Shown: in pieces, positions 54,112 to 64,000 of the stretch | Numbering within the stretch: position 1 is the stretch's first letter | Layout: each line of letters starts with the position of its first letter | Assembly (NCBI GenBank): GCA_009777735.1 | Contig: WRLF01000001.1 | Span: 62,001 to 126,000, forward strand | Source: Treponema sp. | GTDB taxonomy: Bacteria; Spirochaetota; Spirochaetia; Treponematales; Breznakiellaceae | Reading direction: 5' to 3' | DNA length: 64,000 nt | The notes under the pieces: generated by a model | Databases searched by the model: none | What the model saw: the letters and a program-made list of their open reading frames with translations, nothing else | What the model was told of the DNA's origin: nothing | Program-made: the position numbers and the translations under genes

Positions 54112-57100
54112 ATGAGAAAGATTTACCAGTGTTTAGTTATATTCGGATTTTTGGTCATTTTGTTCGGTTTTACCACCTGTCTGACAGGATCAGACAAAAG
54201 CGGTTCGATTACCTCTTTTTCGGGCTCTTTCGTGGAAAGAGGGCAGCCTATCGCTGAACTTTCCGGTTACCGTATCGCCTACTATGAACCGGTGCCAGCT
54301 GCCGCCGCCGGAACTTCCTCTGAAACCGATGCTGTTTCCCGAGGAATTCAAGAAACAGACGCCCCGTTTATCATGGCAGACTGGGGGCCGCGTGACGAAC
54401 TACCCCAGGAAATAAAAAAACCGTCAATTTATGTGGTTTTTTCCCAGCCTGTAGTTCCTCTGGCACGGCTGGGCGACCCAATTCGGGAGAGTTCCGGTCT
54501 TTTTACCATTGACCCGCCTCTTGCCGGTACCTATCGCTGGTATGGCTCAAGGCTGCTTTCTTTTGAGCCTGATGCTGAAATCATCCCCCAACACCGGTAT
54601 ACCGTCACCGTTTCCGATAGAATCAGGTCGCTGGGCGGGAAAAGCCTGCAAGGCACGCTTGCCTTCAGCTTTGAAACTGAGCGGTTGTCTGTCCTGGACT
54701 GGCAGTTGGGCGATGGCGATAGCTGGGTATGGGATCGCAATGTGCATCCCGAAGATGCACGGCAAATCAGGATGATTTTTTCCTACCCTGTAAATTTGGC
54801 AGAAATTGCCCAATGGATTGAGGTACGCGCCGGCGGAAGAACCTGGCCGTTTACCCTTGCACGGCTTCCCAATGTTGACGAGCGCAGCCACCGGCCGGAA
54901 CAAGGCGTACTGCTTACCGTAAACGATCAGCTCCCCTTAAACACCAGCGTTACGATGGTATTGAAAGAGGGCGCCCGTTCCGAGCCGGGCTGGCTTGGAG
55001 CAAAAGAGGAGAAATCCTGGAATTACCACACATTGCTGCCGTTTAGTTTCGAGAGCATCTCGGTTCAGAGCCACTCGCGGCCCCGTTCCGATTCAAGCGA
55101 TTCTATTCCCATCTACCTTAGTTTCAACCAGAACGTGGAACCTCAAAATATTGAACGGTTCATTTCGATTGAAGGGCTTCCTGCGCTTCAGCAAGACAAC
55201 GTCTCTGTCTATGGATCCAGGGTTACTATTAACAACCTGCCGCTGGAATACGAACGTAATTATATTGTCCGCATTTCGGCGAATGTCAGAGACCTGTACG
55301 GTCGTACTCTTGGCAGAGAAGAAAGAGTTGAGGCGAGAGTTGGCGCGGCAAGCAGTTATATGTATGTTCACAACACAGGGTCGCGGATGCTGGAAGCGGG
55401 GTACCCTCCGGTGATTGTTTGGGAAACGCAAAATCCTGTATCGCTGAGTACCGGTATCATGACGGCACAAAATCCCTACGAAAGGCTTCCGGTCTCAGGT
55501 CTTGTACCTGTGAACATTGGGGAATTTCCGCAAAACTCCAAACGGTACTTTTTTGAAAACCTTTCTCCATTCCTCAATACGGCAGGAAAAGGAAGTGTCA
55601 TGCTGCGCTGGCAGTACGAGGCCAGATCCCAATGGGAGGCTAACAGAACATTTTCCGGCAGTGAATGGCTGACAGTACAGGTTACCGATATAGGCATAAC
55701 GACCCGTTATGCCTATAACACCGTGCTGGTATGGGCCACCCGTCTTTCAGACGGAACAGCAATTACTAATGCCGATGTTGAACTGCTGGAAAGCGGCGAG
55801 GTTGTCATCAACGGCAGAACAAATGCGCAGGGGCTGGCGGTTTTTAATTTTTCAAATGAATATCTTGGCTCGCGTTTTACCGATTCGCAGAATAATCTCT
55901 GGAGCGATACCAATTACGGCAGAGGTTTTCGTATCCGGGTCAGTACCGGCGCGGGGCAAACATTAGACAGAGCGGAATTTATCCCCAACAACAGCCATAA
56001 CATCTGGCGTTTCGGCGTCGAAGAAACGGCAAGCCCTTTTCTCGTGAGGGATGAACGCCAACTGCTTTTCCTGTTCACCGACCGGGGCTTGTACCGTCCC
56101 GGCGAAACCGTTACATTCCGGGGCGTTGACCGGAACATCAGCCGGGGGCAATTCTCAACATATCAGGGGCAGTACCGGATTGAGGTGAGCAGCGGAGCGT
56201 ATCAGGCGCCGGTAATAGCCAGGCTGAATGGAAATACTACGGCAAACGGCGGTTCTTTTGGAACATTCGAATTGCCCGCTAATATTGACCCGGGTGAATA
56301 CCAGATAATATATACCCGCGGAACGGGTGGCGGCGGGCGAGAGACAGAAAGGTCTGTTCAGTTTACCGTTGCCAACTTTGAGCGGCTCCGTTTTGAATCT
56401 TCGCTGCGCTTTCCCGATCTGCCGGTGTTTCAGGGAGACAGAATCACCGCCTCGCTTTCCGCCTCGTACCTTGCGGGAGGCGGGCTTTCCGGTGCGCCAT
56501 TCGACTGGCATTTGACGCGGGAGCCGACCGGCTTCCTCCCCGGCGGAACTGCCGGAGCGTGGGGAAACTGGTATTTTGGGCCGGAAAACACTGACGGGAG
56601 ATCTTTTCTGGGACAGGGCAGCGGAACACTTAGCCATGACGGAACGGCGGAAATCACCAATGTGACCCGCAGTGACGGCATTGAAGGCGCGGTGTACCGT
56701 TACCGGCTTGAGGCCTCGGTGCAGGATGCGGCACGGCAGGAAATAGCGAGCAGCGGCTCTGTCCTGGTACACCCCGCTTCGTTTTACATTGCGGCGCGGA
56801 TTGATTCGGGAACATTAAGAAACGCTGCCCAAAATTCTTCGGCAAGCGGTGCTGCGGCTTTTACCACCTCAGATCCTTCGGCGTATTTTCTCAGCGCGGG
56901 GAGGCCCGCGACATTGCGCTGGGCGCTGGTAGCGCCTGACGGCGAAGCACCCAACTCCGGGACGCCGGAAAATGTGACAATACAGCTTGTCCGCCACGAA
57001 TGGAAACAGGCCAGTCAACAGGGCGTTGGCGGTAGGATCAACCTGGTGTGGGAACGGGTTGAAGAAATTGTAGAAGAAAGAATCGTAAGAAACATATCAC

Positions 57101-60100
57101 CGGCGGCAAACGGGTTTATTTCCGGTGTGTTTCATTTTTCTCCGAATACGAGCGGCTTGTGGGAAGTGCGGCTTCAAAGTAATGACCACCTGCAGCGCAT
57201 TGCCGCAACCCGTTTCCGTTTTTATGTGAGCGGAGCGGGATGGGTACGCTGGGGCTCTGATGACGTGGACACGATCAGCCTTACCGCCGACCGCCGGAGC
57301 TACACACCGGGTGAAACTGCAAGGATACTGGTGCGATCGCCGCTGGAAAAAGGTATGTATCTTTTGACCCTGGAACGCGAAGGGATCATTTCTCAGCAGA
57401 TCATCGAACTTGACGGTTCTGCCCTGACCATAGACATCCCTGTCCAGGAATCCTATATACCGGTTGTGTACGCCGCATTGTCTTCATACACGGTGCGTTC
57501 AGGCTCTCCGCAAAACACATACTACGAGCCGGATCTGGACAAGCCCAAGGGGATTTTTGGCGTTACGCCGATTTATGTTGATCATACAAGCCGCCATTAC
57601 CAGGTAGAGATTGAAAATTCCAAAGCGGTGTTCCGTCCCGGTGAAGATGCTGAAATAACGATAAAAGTATCACTGAACGGCCGGCCCGCTGCAAATACCG
57701 AAGTGAGTTTCATGGCAGTTGACAGGGGGGTGCTTGATCTCATTAACTACCGAGTACCCGATCCCAATGCATTTTTTTACAGTTCCTGGAATTTCCCGTT
57801 GGGGGTGCGCGGCGCAGACAGCCGTTCGCTTTTGATCGATCCGGTCACTTACACCATTTCCGATCTTCAGGGCGGCGACAGCGAGCTCGCCAGGGGCGCT
57901 GATTCCAAGCTGGACGAGCGCAGCGATTTCCGTCCGACTGCGGTATTCGAACCGTACCTGGTAACGGGCCCCGACGGAACGGTGAAAGTAACATTCCGCC
58001 TGCCCGATTCGCTTACCACTTACCGGTGTACGGCAGTTGCAGTCGGCACACAAAATTTTGGCATCAGGGAGCAGGATTTACGGGTAAGCGCACCGCTTAC
58101 TGCCATTGCCGCATTGCCCCGTAAGCTCCGCTGGCGGGATACCGGCACAGTTTCGCTGATCCTTACGAATCTTGAAAACACCGCTGTAGAAGCACTCGTC
58201 TCCCTTGAAATTGAGGAGACGCTTTCCCTTGAAACAGGGACAGACACCGAAACGGAAAACCAGGACACAGTTCTTGAAGTTGACGGAAATGATTCTCAAA
58301 CTGTCAGGATACTTCCGGGTACATCGGCGGAAGTCCAATTCAAAGTCGCCGCCCTGGGCGTTGGCGAAGCAAGGCTTGTTTTCACCCTCCGTTCGCCCCA
58401 GGTAAATGAGCGTATCGTTAGGACAATTCTTGTCGACAGGCCAATCCTGACCGAAACGGTAACTTCCATTGGCAACCTTGGCGCCGAGGACAGCTTTTTT
58501 GAAGAAGGGATGGTATTACCATCGCTGGTTCCCGAAGGAACAGGCAATGTAACGGTAAGTCTTTCTGCTTCACGGCTTGCCGCACTCAAAGAAGCTGTCC
58601 GTTATCTGCTGGATTATCCCTTCAACTGCATTGAGCAGCGTGTTGCGCGCCTCCTGCCGCTGGCTGCCTTTGGAGAACACATGGACGCGTTCGATATTGC
58701 AAGCCCGTTACGGGGCAGCGGCCCATGGAACCCCCAAAAAATCGTTGAGGATGAACTTGTAGAACTGGCAAGGTTACAGTTGAGCAACGGTTCATTCCCC
58801 TTCTGGCCGGGAGGCTTACGCGGCGATCTGTTTGCCAGCCTGCGGATGGCGCACATTGTCGTATTGGCACGATCCAAAGGCATGGCAATTCCTGCATCGC
58901 TGAATACCAGACAGTTGCTTTCCTGGATTACCGCCGCCGAAAACGACAGGACTTACCAGCATATAATGCAGGACCCATTCATCAAGGGCTATTCATTGTG
59001 GATCAGAGCGATGCACGGTGAGCGGATAGGCTCGGAAATTACCGCTTTTCTCAGACGGGGTGACGAATTGGGCATTTCCGGCTGGGCTTTTGCAGGGCTT
59101 GCCGCGCTGGAATTGGGGCAGAGGGATACGGCAGTATCAGCTGCGGATCGTGTCCGCCGGTTTATCCGGCCGGGAACCCGAAGCCTTGATTTAACCGACA
59201 CATACGAGCGCGGAAACAATTATTGGGGTTATGACTCTGACCGTTACGCCCTTGCATTAATGCTCTTCCATACACTATCTCCGGCAGACGACATGACAAC
59301 ACGCCTTGCAACATCCCTCATCGAACGGCAGCGCCGGGGAGGGAACGCCTCCGGTATATGGAACAATACCGCATCTACATTCTGGGCAGTGCTTGCCTTT
59401 GGCATGGTCGGCGATGCGGAATCAGCCGAATGGAGATCATCCGGTTCCGTCCTTCGCAGTACTGTCAGTCTGGGAGGAGCATCTCTGCTCAATGCCGAAT
59501 TCAGATCCTACGGCGGTGTTCCTGTGTCGTATAACGGCCGTTTTACCGATGCCCCTGTCAGCGAGCTGCCCAGAGATGTCCTGCTGCCCCTGCGGATTGA
59601 ACGTCACGGGCCGGGCAGGCTGTTTTATACGGCAAGCCTCCGGTATGGAATTCCGGTTGAGCTAGCCAGCGCACGGGATGAAGGGCTGGGGGTTTTTGTT
59701 GAGACCTTTGATTCCGAAGGCCGTCCGGTGACGAACGGCAGGCTTCGGCCGGGCAGCACCTACACCCGCCGGATAACTGTTTCCAGTTCCCGCGACCGCA
59801 CTTTTGTTGCGCTTCGTTCGCCTGTTCCATCCGGTGCAGAAATTGTGGATTCCGTTTTTATTACCAGCGCCACTGTACCCCCTGCCGGTGATGAAACAAG
59901 GGAAAGGCAGGACTATTGGGATTATTATGATCCACCGCCCATGCGGTATATTATGGATGACGAAGCCCGTTACCACTGGGACTTTTTCCGTGCCGGCAGG
60001 CAACAAGTTGAATACCGTTTCAGGGCGGTAATGCCCGGTATTTATCCCACGCCGCCCGCTTCCGCAGAGTGCATGTATGAAGAAGAAATTTTTGGAAGAT

Positions 60101-60129
60101 CGGCGGGTGAATTGATCAGGATCGAATAA
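54112..60129 (+). CDS. Bacterial alpha-2-macroglobulin (YfhM-like), thioester-containing lipoprotein
   Basis: 2005 residues. Signal with a lipobox-like GFTTC (Cys23). A string of macroglobulin (MG) beta-sandwich domains (about 100-1450), including the region around VFSQPVVPLARLG, YRPGETVTFRG and VEPYLVTGPDGTVKVTFRLP-like segments, then the alpha/alpha TED domain with the thioester motif YPFNCIEQR (Cys1506, Gln1509) and a C-terminal receptor-like domain. It traps proteases at the cell surface and in other bacteria protects the envelope with PBP1C; no pbpC gene is in the window. Leaderless-type promoter. Confidence 0.9.
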   Translation: MRKIYQCLVIFGFLVILFGFTTCLTGSDKSGSITSFSGSFVERGQPIAELSGYRIAYYEPVPAAAAGTSSETDAVSRGIQETDAPFIMADWGPRDELPQEIKKPSIYVVFSQPVVPLARLGDPIRESSGLFTIDPPLAGTYRWYGSRLLSFEPDAEIIPQHRYTVTVSDRIRSLGGKSLQGTLAFSFETERLSVLDWQLGDGDSWVWDRNVHPEDARQIRMIFSYPVNLAEIAQWIEVRAGGRTWPFTLARLPNVDERSHRPEQGVLLTVNDQLPLNTSVTMVLKEGARSEPGWLGAKEEKSWNYHTLLPFSFESISVQSHSRPRSDSSDSIPIYLSFNQNVEPQNIERFISIEGLPALQQDNVSVYGSRVTINNLPLEYERNYIVRISANVRDLYGRTLGREERVEARVGAASSYMYVHNTGSRMLEAGYPPVIVWETQNPVSLSTGIMTAQNPYERLPVSGLVPVNIGEFPQNSKRYFFENLSPFLNTAGKGSVMLRWQYEARSQWEANRTFSGSEWLTVQVTDIGITTRYAYNTVLVWATRLSDGTAITNADVELLESGEVVINGRTNAQGLAVFNFSNEYLGSRFTDSQNNLWSDTNYGRGFRIRVSTGAGQTLDRAEFIPNNSHNIWRFGVEETASPFLVRDERQLLFLFTDRGLYRPGETVTFRGVDRNISRGQFSTYQGQYRIEVSSGAYQAPVIARLNGNTTANGGSFGTFELPANIDPGEYQIIYTRGTGGGGRETERSVQFTVANFERLRFESSLRFPDLPVFQGDRITASLSASYLAGGGLSGAPFDWHLTREPTGFLPGGTAGAWGNWYFGPENTDGRSFLGQGSGTLSHDGTAEITNVTRSDGIEGAVYRYRLEASVQDAARQEIASSGSVLVHPASFYIAARIDSGTLRNAAQNSSASGAAAFTTSDPSAYFLSAGRPATLRWALVAPDGEAPNSGTPENVTIQLVRHEWKQASQQGVGGRINLVWERVEEIVEERIVRNISPAANGFISGVFHFSPNTSGLWEVRLQSNDHLQRIAATRFRFYVSGAGWVRWGSDDVDTISLTADRRSYTPGETARILVRSPLEKGMYLLTLEREGIISQQIIELDGSALTIDIPVQESYIPVVYAALSSYTVRSGSPQNTYYEPDLDKPKGIFGVTPIYVDHTSRHYQVEIENSKAVFRPGEDAEITIKVSLNGRPAANTEVSFMAVDRGVLDLINYRVPDPNAFFYSSWNFPLGVRGADSRSLLIDPVTYTISDLQGGDSELARGADSKLDERSDFRPTAVFEPYLVTGPDGTVKVTFRLPDSLTTYRCTAVAVGTQNFGIREQDLRVSAPLTAIAALPRKLRWRDTGTVSLILTNLENTAVEALVSLEIEETLSLETGTDTETENQDTVLEVDGNDSQTVRILPGTSAEVQFKVAALGVGEARLVFTLRSPQVNERIVRTILVDRPILTETVTSIGNLGAEDSFFEEGMVLPSLVPEGTGNVTVSLSASRLAALKEAVRYLLDYPFNCIEQRVARLLPLAAFGEHMDAFDIASPLRGSGPWNPQKIVEDELVELARLQLSNGSFPFWPGGLRGDLFASLRMAHIVVLARSKGMAIPASLNTRQLLSWITAAENDRTYQHIMQDPFIKGYSLWIRAMHGERIGSEITAFLRRGDELGISGWAFAGLAALELGQRDTAVSAADRVRRFIRPGTRSLDLTDTYERGNNYWGYDSDRYALALMLFHTLSPADDMTTRLATSLIERQRRGGNASGIWNNTASTFWAVLAFGMVGDAESAEWRSSGSVLRSTVSLGGASLLNAEFRSYGGVPVSYNGRFTDAPVSELPRDVLLPLRIERHGPGRLFYTASLRYGIPVELASARDEGLGVFVETFDSEGRPVTNGRLRPGSTYTRRITVSSSRDRTFVALRSPVPSGAEIVDSVFITSATVPPAGDETRERQDYWDYYDPPPMRYIMDDEARYHWDFFRAGRQQVEYRFRAVMPGIYPTPPASAECMYEEEIFGRSAGELIRIE

Positions 60130-60140
60130 AACCTGGTTTA

Positions 60141-60767
60141 TCACACCCTATGCACACAAGCCAGGACCCGCCCGGCAATTCTGATGTCCTCTATCTCGAG
60201 CCCGGAAAAGCGGCGGGGTTCATAGGCTTTGTTGGCGCTAATGAGGATAATGGTCTGATTTTTAATATTAAAATCTACCCTTTTGACCATAAGGTTATTG
60301 CCTACGGAAATTACATAAATCCCGTTCCCTTCTTTTAGGTTGGGGTGGAAAATGGCTATATCGCCATCATTAATGTGTTCGTCAATCATGCTGTCCCCTG
60401 CCACATAAACGGCTTGTAACCTATCCGATCTATAGGGAGCAATGAGGGAGCGGGGAACCTGAAATGTGCGTTTTTCGATGTAGCTATCCACTTCTTTACC
60501 CTGTCCTGCGGCAGCTTCCTGATCCAGTAATTCAATCAATACCGTGTCGGGGTCATAGCCGGAACTGCCTATGCCTGTTAAAAACCAGTGTAAATTGACA
60601 TTGTATGTTTGCCGCAGGGCTTCCATGACTTCACGAGAGGGCTTTAACATTCCGGTTGATATTTGGTAGCCCATTGCTTTAGAAAGCCCCAAGCTTTCGG
60701 CAAAATCCTTTTTGGACAGGCCGCTTCCTTGCTGGATAATATTATAGCGATCTGCTTCACTTGCCAT
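60141..60767 (-). CDS. LexA/CI-like repressor with S24 autoprotease domain
   Basis: 208 residues. N-terminal XRE-type helix-turn-helix (about 5-65; KDFAESLGLSKAMGYQISTG and the LHWFLTGIG of phage repressors), then peptidase S24 with Ser126 in VAGDSMID and Lys162 in NLMVKRVDF. A probable cleavage site is Ala87-Gly88 in EAAAGQG. RecA-stimulated self-cleavage would derepress the divergent operon. It is phage-repressor-like, not the canonical winged-helix LexA. GGAGG precedes ATG 60767. No phage genes are nearby. Confidence 0.88.
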   Translation of the reverse strand: MASEADRYNIIQQGSGLSKKDFAESLGLSKAMGYQISTGMLKPSREVMEALRQTYNVNLHWFLTGIGSSGYDPDTVLIELLDQEAAAGQGKEVDSYIEKRTFQVPRSLIAPYRSDRLQAVYVAGDSMIDEHINDGDIAIFHPNLKEGNGIYVISVGNNLMVKRVDFNIKNQTIILISANKAYEPRRFSGLEIEDIRIAGRVLACVHRV

Positions 60768-60786
60768 TGACAGCCTCCGATAATTG

Positions 60787-60843
60787 GTATAGAATAACTA
60801 CACTGCATAGATTATATGCTATACTGAATAATTTGTAAAGAGG
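60787..60843. promoter_or_regulatory. Divergent promoters and overlapping inverted repeats
   Basis: Minus strand: TTTACA (60840-60835), 17-bp spacer, TATAAT (60817-60812) drives the repressor. Plus strand: ACTACA (60797-60802), 17-bp spacer, TATACT (60820-60825) drives DUF72-imuB-dnaE. GCATA (60805-60809) and TATGC (60815-60819) form a perfect dyad covering the repressor -10; GTATAG (60787-60792) and CTATAC (60819-60824) form an outer dyad. Both fit repressor operators. Confidence 0.55.
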
Positions 60844-60847
60844 CTTT

Positions 60848-61636
60848 ATGGCAGATATTCAAATCGGTACAAGCGGGTATTCCTACCATGAATGGGTGGG
60901 GATTGTGTACCCGGAAGGGACTAAATCTAAAGATTATTTAACCTGTTATGCGGGGCTTTTCCCTACCGTTGAGCTTAATTTTTCCTATTATTCCATGCCT
61001 AAAGCCGAAAATTTGGCTAAAATGTTGGTTGATGGCGGAGAAAACCTTACTTTTGCCATAAAAGCCCATAAAACCCTGACCCATGAAATTAACCCTTCTC
61101 TTTGGGAAAGCGAGGCAAAAACCTATTTGACGGCTATTGAACCTATGCTAAATGCAGGGCGGCTGGAGGCGGTTTTATTCCAGTATCCTTATTCTTTCCG
61201 GTATACAGATGATAACAGACGGTACCTGGATAAGTTATTGAAGTTTTTCAACGGGGTTCCGGTGGCTGTGGAATTCAGAAAATCCGACTGGTACAGCGGA
61301 AAGGTTATTGACGGCATGAAAAGCCGAAATGTACCGCTGGTTTCTTTGGATATGCCGGAACTGCCGAAACTGCCCCCTTTGATGGAATTGGTTACGGCTT
61401 CGGTCGCGTATGTCCGTTTACATGGTCGGAATAAAGAAGCATGGTGGGGTAACGATGACCATGCCCGGTATGACTATTTATATACTGACAGTGAAGTTGA
61501 GGCGTGGGCTGACAGAATTAAGCGAATTGCAGAACAGGCAAAAAGAGTTTTGGTGTATTTTAACAATCACCCTTTTGGGAAAGCGGTAAGAAATGCACAG
61601 ACACTGGAAAAACTATTAAAGAAAATGGGCTTATGA
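60848..61636 (+). CDS. DUF72 (YecE-like) TIM-barrel protein
   Basis: 262 residues, near the family's usual length. DUF72 motifs: N-terminal IQIGTSGYSYHEWVGIVYPE, then YAGLFPTVELNFSYYSMP, FAIKAHKTLTHEI and the C-terminal VYFNNHPFGKAVRNAQTLEK. The family has known structures but no established reaction. It starts a repressor-controlled operon with an ImuB-like and a DnaE protein, overlapping the next gene by 4 nt, so a DNA-damage role is inferred. AAAGAGG lies before the ATG. Confidence 0.9.
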   Translation: MADIQIGTSGYSYHEWVGIVYPEGTKSKDYLTCYAGLFPTVELNFSYYSMPKAENLAKMLVDGGENLTFAIKAHKTLTHEINPSLWESEAKTYLTAIEPMLNAGRLEAVLFQYPYSFRYTDDNRRYLDKLLKFFNGVPVAVEFRKSDWYSGKVIDGMKSRNVPLVSLDMPELPKLPPLMELVTASVAYVRLHGRNKEAWWGNDDHARYDYLYTDSEVEAWADRIKRIAEQAKRVLVYFNNHPFGKAVRNAQTLEKLLKKMGL

Positions 61637-62850
61637 GGGACAGGGCGGTATGCCATCTTAACATTATTGGATTCAAGGCGGCGGTGGCGGCGGCTAAAGA
61701 CAAGAGCCTGCGAGGGCAGCCTTATGTCATTGCAGGAGCAATCGGGGGGCGAAGTCTCGCTCTGGACTGTTCACCGGAAGCAATAAGACAGGGGATTACT
61801 CCGGGCATGGCTTTAGCGGCTGCGGAACGGCGGGTAAAGGATTTGACGGTACTCCCCCCTGACATTCCGGCTTATGGAATGATAAACCGCGAAATTGAAC
61901 GAGTAGCGGCTCGGTATGCTCCGGTTTGGGAAAATGACCATACAGGAAATCTGTATCTTGATATTACCGGGACTACAACAATATTCGGTACTCCTGCCGA
62001 CTGTTCAAGCCGGATTTTAAGAGATATCAGGGAACAAACAGAAATATTTCCGGCGGTTGCGGTTGCGACTAACAAATTGGTGTCCAAGGTTGCTACACGG
62101 ACTATACGCCCTGCAGGTTTAATACAAGTTCAGGCCGGAACGGAAGCAGAATTTTTAAGCCATCAGGATATTCGATTATTACCGGGTATGGGTGCGAAAC
62201 TGCTGAAAACAGCGGCGATTGTTGGGATTCGGGAAATTGGGGAAGTTGCCCGGCTTACAGATAGTGAAGCCATAGCATTATTCGGTAAAAAAGGGTCAAT
62301 GATTAAGAGCATGGCTTTAGGGATTGACGGCTCTATTGTTGAAGATATTAGCGGGAATAGGCGTATTTGCCAACAGGCAGACTTCGGGGAAAATACAATA
62401 GAAAAAACGGCAATAATGGGAGCAATAGAAGCCCTTGCAGAGCATGGGGGCTTTTTAATGCGGCGTGACAAACTGGGAGCGGCAATTATTAAACTACTGG
62501 TTGTATATGCTGACGGAATGAAAGTTGAAGGGCAGGATAAACCCCGGCGATCTTGTATCCTTGACCGGGAAATATCGGCGGCGGCAGAGAAAATTTACCG
62601 TAAAATAGCTGTGCGAAGAATACAGATACGGAGTATTGGATTATCCCTTGAAGGGCTAATGCGTCTTGGTTTTGAACCGGATTTATTTGAACCGGAAACG
62701 GAAATCGCAAACCGGAAATTGCAGGAAGCAATAGATAAAATACAAAATCGTTACGGTGCAGGCAAGATAACAAGAGGGCCGGTATTGGCAGCAAAAAAAA
62801 TGAGGAATGATGGGGGCGTACTGATTACGGGGGCTTCTTTTGTACATTAG
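61633..62850 (+). CDS. ImuB-like, catalytically degenerate Y-family polymerase
   Basis: 405 residues; ATG overlaps the DUF72 stop. Y-family layout: palm/fingers (VCHLNIIGFKAAVAA), LYLDITGTTTIFGT, HhH thumb region (IRLLPGMGAKLLK) and a little-finger domain. The usual first catalytic Asp is Asn10, and the DE pair aligns with Gly105-Asn106, so nucleotidyl transfer is unlikely. This is the ImuB condition: a scaffold that links DnaE2 to the clamp. It lacks the longer C-terminus of many ImuB proteins (about 500 residues). The dnaE gene follows. Confidence 0.8.
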   Translation: MRDRAVCHLNIIGFKAAVAAAKDKSLRGQPYVIAGAIGGRSLALDCSPEAIRQGITPGMALAAAERRVKDLTVLPPDIPAYGMINREIERVAARYAPVWENDHTGNLYLDITGTTTIFGTPADCSSRILRDIREQTEIFPAVAVATNKLVSKVATRTIRPAGLIQVQAGTEAEFLSHQDIRLLPGMGAKLLKTAAIVGIREIGEVARLTDSEAIALFGKKGSMIKSMALGIDGSIVEDISGNRRICQQADFGENTIEKTAIMGAIEALAEHGGFLMRRDKLGAAIIKLLVVYADGMKVEGQDKPRRSCILDREISAAAEKIYRKIAVRRIQIRSIGLSLEGLMRLGFEPDLFEPETEIANRKLQEAIDKIQNRYGAGKITRGPVLAAKKMRNDGGVLITGASFVH

Positions 62851-64000
62851 GCTTGGTCTTGTATCGGGGTACTCATTTCTATATGGGGTGCATAAGCCGG
62901 GGGAAATACTAAACCGTGCTGCTTCTCTTGGGATTAAGGTAGTTTCCTTCTGTGATTTGAACAGCCTGTATGGTGTGCATACGGTTCTTGAAGAAGCGAA
63001 AGAAAGGGATATAAGACCGATTATTGGTGCGGCTTTAACTATAGGTAAAAATACCAATCCGGCGGTTTATTGTTTCGTGGAAAACCGGGCGGGGTTTAGA
63101 CGGCTTTGCGAACTGCTGACTTTAAGGAACAAGGATAAAGAAAATTTTAATCCGATTTTGCCGTTATGCGAGCAATCAGCGGGACTTGTTTTAGCTTCTA
63201 CCGACGATAAAGTTTTGGAAAATCTTAAAGGGCGGGTAAAGCGGCTTTTTGCGGCGATAACTCCTTCTGATATTAGAGCCGCACCTTCCGGCCGCAGGCT
63301 GAATATTCCGCTTGCTTTTCTGGATGATTCCTTATTTTTGGAAGCCGGGGATTTTGCCGTTCATCGGGTGTTACGTGCAATAAGCCTTTTGAAAACAGTT
63401 GGCAATTTAAGTGAAGGCGATACTGCCGATAAAGAAAGATATTTACGTTCATCGGGTGATTTACACCGCCGTCTTGTATCATGGCCGGAAGCGGTCAGGG
63501 GGACAGAAGAAATTGCCGCTATTTGCACTTTTAATGAAATTTTTAATAAATGGATATTCCCGGCTTATGCGACCGGGGGGCTGCCGGTCATTGATGAATT
63601 GCGGCATAGGGTGTATGAGGGGAATGCTGTTCGTTACGGCGAACTGGCAGACAGGGAAATCGGACGGATTGAATATGAACTTGGTGTGATAGAGGAAAAA
63701 GGATTTGCAGAGTATTTTCTGTTAATTGACGATATTGTCAAAATGTCTAAGGCTTCCAAAGGAAGCACTACCTGCGGGCGGGGTTCCGGCGCGGCTTCTA
63801 TTGTTTCGTATGGTTTGGGTATTACCAATGTTGATCCCTTGCGGCATGAATTGTATTTTGAACGGTTTCTTAATCCTTCACGCTCTGATCCGCCTGATAT
63901 TGATATAGATTTTGCATGGGACGAAAGAGACGATTTAATCCAGGCGGTTATTGATAAGTTTGGAGCTGAATATTGCGGCAGGGTGGCTAATCACAATATG
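62840..64000 (+). CDS. DNA polymerase III alpha-type protein, DnaE2/ImuC-like (3' end outside window)
   Basis: 387 codons from TTG 62840 (GGGGG 6 nt upstream; overlaps the imuB-like gene by 11 nt) to the window edge. N-terminal PHP domain: residues 4-16 have LGLVSGYSFLYG where active PHP domains have LHxHSxYSxLxG, and FCDLNSLYG replaces the TDHxxLxG block, so metal ligands are lost. The polymerase core is intact: GRGSGAASIVSYGLGIT and PPDIDIDF (Asp353, Asp355). It is probably an error-prone translesion polymerase paired with the ImuB-like protein. Confidence 0.88.
   Translation, partial: MYIRLGLVSGYSFLYGVHKPGEILNRAASLGIKVVSFCDLNSLYGVHTVLEEAKERDIRPIIGAALTIGKNTNPAVYCFVENRAGFRRLCELLTLRNKDKENFNPILPLCEQSAGLVLASTDDKVLENLKGRVKRLFAAITPSDIRAAPSGRRLNIPLAFLDDSLFLEAGDFAVHRVLRAISLLKTVGNLSEGDTADKERYLRSSGDLHRRLVSWPEAVRGTEEIAAICTFNEIFNKWIFPAYATGGLPVIDELRHRVYEGNAVRYGELADREIGRIEYELGVIEEKGFAEYFLLIDDIVKMSKASKGSTTCGRGSGAASIVSYGLGITNVDPLRHELYFERFLNPSRSDPPDIDIDFAWDERDDLIQAVIDKFGAEYCGRVANHNM

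Follow-up and report, generated by a model that had tools for sequence, protein, structure and literature searches.

Does a three-gene operon in a Treponema sp. genome encode a mutasome and, if so, what is a DUF72 protein doing in it? The question is raised by the right-hand end of a 64,000-nucleotide stretch of DNA (the window: assembly GCA_009777735.1, contig WRLF01000001.1, positions 62,001 to 126,000 of the forward strand; window numbering is used below), where genes for DUF72, an inactive Y-family polymerase homologue (iPolY) and a second DnaE lie divergently from a gene for an S24-type repressor. The initial annotation described an SOS-type mutasome in which DUF72 takes the place of ImuA alongside an ImuB-like protein, under a CI-like repressor. 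We find that the operon is real and widely conserved, that DUF72 is a new regular partner of a predicted kind of mutasome, and that the repressor in the window is lineage-specific. The operon probably encodes a damage-tolerance (translesion) mutasome of the DnaE2B-iPolY-RecA type, to which it adds DUF72 as a further partner. This reading is built on which genes are present, how they are coupled and how regularly they recur, on the lost catalytic residues of the Y-family protein and the retained ones of DnaE, on the S24 residues, and on an SOS-like box that the operon shares, in relatives, with recA and other repair genes.

Results

Recurrence of the DUF72-iPolY-DnaE triplet

All of the genes were found where they had been annotated. 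The DUF72 gene (60848..61636, plus strand), encoding a YecE-like TIM barrel by profile match and fold, overlaps the iPolY gene (61633..62850, plus strand) by 4 nucleotides, which overlaps dnaE (62840..64000 within the window, plus strand, TTG start) by 11 nucleotides; both overlaps were verified. The contig extends past the window, and the sequence to the right completes DnaE at 1008 residues, with the stop codon at window-equivalent position 65866.

A search of 117 genomes, the source genome included, identified 74 with a Y-family match at 1e-8. The clade was defined as the 35 loci at ≥32% identity, the remaining matches being at 20-28% or short fragments. DUF72 is encoded directly upstream and on the same strand in 34 of these 35 loci (the exception is L047), two of the 34 (L062 and L065) being weak, 24% partial matches. 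DnaE follows directly downstream in 31 of 35; at three of the four remaining loci the contig ends, and at the fourth (L045, genome G020) the gene is truly absent beside the operon. Neither gene accompanies the six ordinary DinB-like control loci. In a second sample of 296 Spirochaetota genomes (flanks of up to 1.5 kb; four of the 14 strong loci overlap the 35), the strong-match loci carry DUF72 in 14/14 and DnaE in 12/14 cases, and 16 lower-scoring loci carry neither. The triplet is not a chance arrangement, because 34/35 and 31/35 stand against 0/6 controls, and 14/14 and 12/14 against 0/16. Its recurrence across related genomes, on which the initial annotation had made its proposal depend, is thereby established.

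The distribution extends well beyond spirochaetes. In a scan of GTDB species, covering the best 80 of 203 relatives and sharing part of its Spirochaetota loci with the 35-locus set, DUF72 lies beside iPolY in 62 of 74 loci with at least 1 kb upstream and is not beside it in 12, and DnaE is present in 70 of the 71 loci whose downstream flank reaches 700 bases or more. By phylum, DUF72 accompanies iPolY in 25/26 Spirochaetota, 28/37 Thermodesulfobacteriota, 3/5 Myxococcota, 1/1 Planctomycetota, 1/1 Fibrobacterota, and 4/4 unassigned loci. The triplet thus occurs in five named phyla, four besides Spirochaetota, often after a LexA-like gene. The spacing between DUF72 and iPolY varies, from the 4-nucleotide overlap in the window to matched regions 7-452 bases apart elsewhere.

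Individual copies depart from this layout. G020 (L045/L251) has DUF72 and iPolY with an SOS-like box and no adjacent DnaE. Broken copies were also seen (L049 and L051): the DnaE of L049 is split over two reading frames, and the iPolY of G107 contains an in-frame stop.

iPolY is a dead Y-family protein

Alignment to DinB structures shows that the catalytic residues are replaced in the window iPolY, DinB Asp8, Asp103, and Glu104 corresponding to Asn10, Gly105, and Asn106. The Y-family carboxylates are lost in all 57 clade proteins: Asp8 is Asn and Asp103 is Gly in 57/57, and Glu104 is His in 42 or Asn in 15. The description of the locus as a compact, mutasome-like operon with a catalytically dead Y-family protein is therefore supported. 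Toward the C-terminus, the window iPolY carries a DLFEP motif, likely clamp-binding, of which Leu351 and Phe352 are invariant in 33 aligned rows. In an hhalign profile comparison, the RecA N-terminus aligns to iPolY residues 356-381 (E 0.014). The best RecA-like segment falls at the C-terminal end in 37 of 57 proteins, and p is ≤ 0.05 for 26 of the 57 (0.025 for the protein of the window). In part of the clade the iPolY C-terminus therefore seems to resemble the RecA N-terminus.

The name "ImuB-like" did not hold. In the final Y-family tree, calculated from 16 of the 57 clade proteins and seven reference ImuBs from plasmid loci, the clade (support 99/98) is separate from the ImuBs (100/98); the tree is unrooted, so a common or sister origin is compatible with it. 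An earlier tree with three reference ImuBs gave clade support of 91/94. Six of the seven reference ImuBs exceed iPolY in length by 82-107 residues; the seventh has 416 residues. Matches to iPolY in a phage collection comprise 40 records, at no more than 26% identity among the matches listed.

DnaE lacks a C-terminal domain and groups apart from DnaE1 and DnaE2

The source genome, whose assembly is 83% complete, also holds a separate DnaE1 (G000:C17), a canonical LexA (G000:C11), and RecA. Equivalents of Asp401, Asp403, and Asp555 are kept in 49/49 clade DnaEs. The window DnaE ends about where the C-terminal domain of Escherichia coli DnaE starts, extending 12 residues past aligned position 1080 versus 81 in E. 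coli. It thus has the DnaE2 architecture; in the portions of the source available, no DnaE2 possesses this domain (PMC3919608). The first PHP histidines are lost, likewise in both canonical DnaE2 rows compared, and a clamp-like QQDLF motif is present. Among NCBIfam models, a DnaE1-type model scores best (599 bits), followed by the superfamily model (540) and the error-prone polymerase model (536), and the protein falls under the cut-offs of both named types (error-prone polymerase: 536 vs. 939 bits). In a tree of 14 of the 49 clade DnaEs and seven reference DnaE2s (row L218 excluded), the clade (100) is separate from DnaE1 (100) and the canonical DnaE2s (99), values being from the Shimodaira-Hasegawa-like approximate likelihood ratio test. 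The comparison with ImuA-containing cassettes, which the initial annotation had suggested, therefore placed both iPolY and DnaE outside the reference ImuB and DnaE2 clades.

The position of ImuA

No protein in the 117 genomes exceeds the cut-off of the ImuA model NF033429, and none does in 14 control genomes including Caulobacter, which possesses an ImuA; the model is narrow. The 14 best matches to this model that were inspected are recA. The claim that ImuA is absent accordingly stands insofar as none was found over the cut-off in 117 genomes or at the operon, with a model that also returned 0/14 in controls. The claim that DUF72 is in place of ImuA is correct in the positional sense, DUF72 being first in the operon. 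A functional swap is unsupported, because ImuA-less DnaE2 mutasomes predicted to use RecA have been published, the tail of iPolY seems RecA-like in part of the clade, and 12 of 74 cassettes show no DUF72 next to iPolY.

We consider it improbable that the locus encodes a canonical ImuA-ImuB-DnaE2 mutasome whose ImuB-binding subunit is DUF72 instead of ImuA. The first position of DUF72 and the failure of the narrow model to find ImuA would fit such a replacement, as would the LexA-like gene that heads many Thermodesulfobacteriota cassettes (N-termini judged by eye), lexA2-imuA-imuB-dnaE2 cassettes beginning with lexA2. Against it are the placement of iPolY outside the seven reference ImuBs (in an unrooted tree that allows a shared origin), its shorter length than six of them, its apparently RecA-like tail, the 12 cassettes of 74 without DUF72 beside iPolY, and published ImuA-less systems that are predicted, in the passages available, to use RecA (PMC12926913, PMC6511836).

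DUF72 as a partner

The window DUF72 belongs to PF01904 (YecE family) by a profile score over the cut-off and by fold, and is the sole DUF72 match in the source assembly. The fold is a TIM barrel in the class of UV endonuclease (UVDE) and endonuclease IV; fold comparison does not single out UV endonuclease. DUF72 is over the cut-off in 9 of the 14 control genomes. The family is described as without assigned function in the available text of PMC11791011. For the Thermotoga maritima member Tm1631 (1vpq), activity is a prediction only in the accessible part of PMC3828134, and the Gln50, Trp53, and Arg54 of its proposed DNA site are not retained here.

The link from DUF72 to iPolY is looser than the reverse. 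By a tally compared by hand across lists, 33 of the 87 DUF72 matches in the 117 genomes immediately precede one of the 35 iPolY loci, versus 34/35 in the other direction; the other 54 lie elsewhere, one of them (G058) adjoining an iPolY fragment. These numbers bear on whether DUF72 might be a separate repair enzyme, a lesion nuclease or binder that is co-regulated with the polymerase genes and forms no physical complex with them. This account draws on the TIM-barrel fold, which falls in the UVDE/endonuclease IV class (PMC3828134, in part), on the 54 matches away from the 35 loci, and on the optional presence of DUF72 in the cassette. The coupling of DUF72 and iPolY over five phyla and their 4-nucleotide overlap in the window weigh against it, and we regard a purely co-regulated enzyme as somewhat unlikely. 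The alternative, that DUF72 belongs as a genuine subunit to another type of DnaE-based mutasome, is put forward tentatively, as possible rather than probable. Here a damage-recognizing or end-processing barrel would act with a dead scaffold bearing Asn, Gly, and His or Asn at the catalytic positions while DnaE synthesizes, the operon of the window lineage having moved from the SOS regulon to its own CI-like switch. From gene neighborhoods, DUF72 appears to be an extra and regular partner of the predicted mutasome, new relative to the literature found, and optional in the cassette. No publication linking DUF72 to DnaE or iPolY was found in a literature search that covered few subscription papers and no bioRxiv preprints.

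The divergent repressor and the operon promoter

The S24 gene (60141..60767, minus strand) encodes an N-terminal helix-turn-helix (HTH) and a C-terminal S24 peptidase domain, identified with Pfam and PHROG profiles and an alignment of six divergent S24s. In LexA, CI, and UmuD proteins, self-cleavage occurs at an Ala-Gly site and depends on a Ser and a Lys; the window S24 has EAAA|GQG as the likely cleavage site, the Ser in VAGDSM, and the Lys in VKRV. EAAAG, GDSM, and the Lys are kept in 6/6 aligned divergent S24s, two of which are near-identical. Peptidase_S24 matches at 3e-20, HTH_19 falls under its cut-off, and the PHROG matches are "transcriptional repressor" (1.1e-32) and "CI-like repressor" (1.9e-13). 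The protein is not LexA: it scores 41.6 bits against a TIGR00498 cut-off of 110.95, the match being confined to the S24 half. By its sequence features (HTH, albeit sub-cut-off for HTH_19, Ala-Gly site, Ser, and Lys) it is a CI-like S24 protein, as the initial annotation had proposed and as the PHROG matches and residue alignment bear out. Since EAAAG, Ser, and Lys are retained in all six, it may well still respond to RecA.

A divergent S24 gene is present in 5 of the 35 clade loci. Each of these has a promoter of the TTGACA-(17 or 18)-TA type, in which the -35 hexamer and the start codon of the S24 gene overlap. In the window, this promoter (TTGACA-17-TAGAAT, 60767..60795, plus strand), assigned from sequence and the same -35 place in the five loci, has a -35 hexamer that shares one base with the S24 start codon. 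A candidate S24 operator, GGTATAG-N5-CTACAC (60786..60803, no strand), was picked by eye over the -10; the palindrome at this site is not significant (p 0.87), and palindromes over the -10 are better in L034 (p 0.03) and L035 (p 0.02). A CI-like repressor is thus supported for the window but is not the general rule; elsewhere, a palindrome of the SOS type or a gene resembling lexA is found.

An SOS-like box in the relatives

Twenty-three operon promoters were surveyed (the five divergent from S24, L037, and 17 with a palindrome; those of L055-L066 were left out). A 16-bp palindrome with consensus CTATAC-N4-GTATAG is present on 17 of the 18 examined promoters without a divergent S24, near or over the -10 and, in 14 of 17, 9-12 bp ahead of the start codon. 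The L037 promoter has neither S24 nor palindrome. A matrix made from the 17 promoters, with significance assessed against 300 shuffles in each case, was scored upstream of recA as an independent test, and the box was detected in 10 of 14 genomes (p ≤ 0.02), in eight at a distance of 92-94 bp from the start codon. Among these 14, no recA-upstream box was found in the source genome, G066, G065, or G059. The window operon promoter likewise lacks the operator shared with recA (best matrix score -2.3, p 0.38). No significant box occurs at the S24 promoters of the window, L035, and L038, and weak matches remain at those of L033 (p 0.007) and L034 (p 0.01).

A 20-letter degenerate SOS pattern, allowing up to three mismatches, showed no genome-wide enrichment over a reversed control. 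Of 16 places inspected in eight genomes (in the source genome, two of four two-mismatch places), nine precede recA (four), the DUF72 operon (two), uvrA (one, G019), and the TIGR03916 and TIGR03915 genes of the source genome; the other seven precede no gene recognized as repair. No box was seen by eye at lexA promoters (20 stretches read, one without a start), where the sequence before lexA resembles the end of another gene. With the pattern not enriched genome-wide, LexA is a putative binder of the box. Separately, the boxes in the source genome lie 4 and 6 bp before the TIGR03916 gene, encoding a radical SAM repair protein (L233 1501-2799), and the TIGR03915 gene (L241 1501-2387), families linked by name whose genes are on separate contigs there.

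Outside spirochaetes, 32 of 74 GTDB-scan loci (Thermodesulfobacteriota and neighbors) have an S24-type gene upstream in the same orientation, with N-termini LexA-like by eye. A Desulfosarcina ovata plasmid is annotated in the order lexA, DUF72, hypothetical protein, DNA polymerase III alpha. Local regulatory rewiring at the window operon is likely, and the simplest account is that the operon is part of a general damage regulon and was passed to a private CI-like repressor in the window lineage, the handover being incomplete in some relatives. Two genomes carry two cassettes each: G066, in which one (of L038 and L039) lies divergently from an S24 gene and the other has an SOS-like box together with a small upstream HTH gene, and G310 (L252).

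Mobility and genomic surroundings

The resemblance of the S24 protein to phage repressors could also mean that the cassette is chiefly mobile or phage-borne and that the repressor is irrelevant to damage. The cassette does occur in three IMG/VR contigs (one of which, L153, holds the G066 locus), in one case flanked by phage structural genes, and on a plasmid that encodes a MOBQ relaxase. This explanation is nevertheless very improbable, given that the S24 keeps its self-cleavage residues, that the same operon bears an SOS-like box in relatives, and that, on the downstream side, four of seven genes following the window operon match RtcB or restriction-modification families and three match nothing in Pfam.

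In the first of these cases, L155 (168-12260, IMG/VR), the cassette lies between phage portal (PHROG 1.7e-113) and major head (2.6e-60) genes with a NACHT-domain protein nearby, and the contig is a phage or prophage carrying the mutasome. The plasmid case, L201 (NZ_AP021877.1), has lexA-DUF72-iPolY-DnaE on a replicon typed as mobilizable, with a TraA relaxase gene, and its iPolY is annotated "hypothetical protein." In the source genome, RtcB, a ResIII-type protein, a PD-(D/E)XK protein, and an N6/N4 DNA methylase are encoded in L002 12531-19993 (window-equivalent 69530-76992, outside the window), a restriction-modification-like locus about 4-11 kb past the operon. On the other side, a 2005-residue open frame (54112-60129) stops 11 bp short of the S24 gene end; judged by eye, it may resemble bacterial alpha-2-macroglobulins. 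The nearest named relatives in protein searches are metagenome-assembled genomes titled Treponema sp., many of which presumably derive from termite guts.

Discussion

A working model can be outlined for the translesion mutasome proposed above. In the undamaged cell, a self-cleavable repressor would silence the operon, through an SOS/LexA-type box in most spirochaete relatives examined and as a CI-like S24 protein in the window lineage. On DNA damage RecA would form filaments, these would stimulate the repressor to cleave itself, and the three genes would then be translated as a coupled unit. iPolY would be a scaffold rather than a polymerase, binding the clamp via DLFEP and RecA via its C-terminal tail, and docking DnaE, which would carry out error-prone synthesis in vivo. 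DUF72 might bind or process the lesion or primer end at the stalled site.

The tight, multi-phylum tie to a translesion polymerase scaffold, beyond the PolB2 link discussed below, gives the DUF72 family a testable role, and if the subunit proposal is true this widespread family gains a defined one. In close relatives the same promoter architecture is found under two kinds of self-cleavable repressor, and the locus therefore offers a handle on how mutagenesis cassettes shift between cell-wide and private damage control.

Comparison with known systems

Like the ImuA-ImuB-DnaE2 mutasome, the operon combines a dead Y-family protein with a second DnaE in a damage-type operon. It differs from the seven plasmid reference loci of that system in that no ImuA was found, DUF72 is present, and its proteins form separate clades.

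The closer resemblance is to published ImuA-less systems. The available portions of PMC12926913 (2026) predict DnaE2B-iPolY-RecA mutasomes without ImuA or ImuB, with RecA in the place of ImuA and one group phyletically wide; those of PMC6511836 (2019) describe ImuA-less DnaE2 variants, often with lexA, for which use of RecA is predicted. As in such a system with a gbDinB2-type iPolY, an inactive Y-family protein is paired with a non-DnaE1 DnaE without a C-terminal domain (PMC12926913, PMC6511836, both in part). Further shared features, as far as the available text goes, are the wide phyletic spread and lexA in some ImuA-less operons; the candidate RecA-like tail and the failure of the narrow model to find ImuA would also fit. 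The likeness to DnaE2B and gbDinB2 is one of features. In contrast to the system of PMC12926913, where "duf" has no occurrences, DUF72 is a regular component here; the passages available from PMC6511836, a paper not searched for the term DUF, mention only the DUF3553 of DinX. The divergent CI-like repressor and the Treponema SOS-like box are likewise absent from the passages available of both papers.

A parallel for DUF72 itself is provided by the PolB2 mutasome, as described in the accessible part of PMC11791011. That system has a B-family polymerase, iRadA, and PPB2, unlike the DnaE and iPolY found here. DUF72 is, however, enriched to some degree near polB2, beside a damage-inducible translesion polymerase operon, much as it accompanies the probable translesion operon here.

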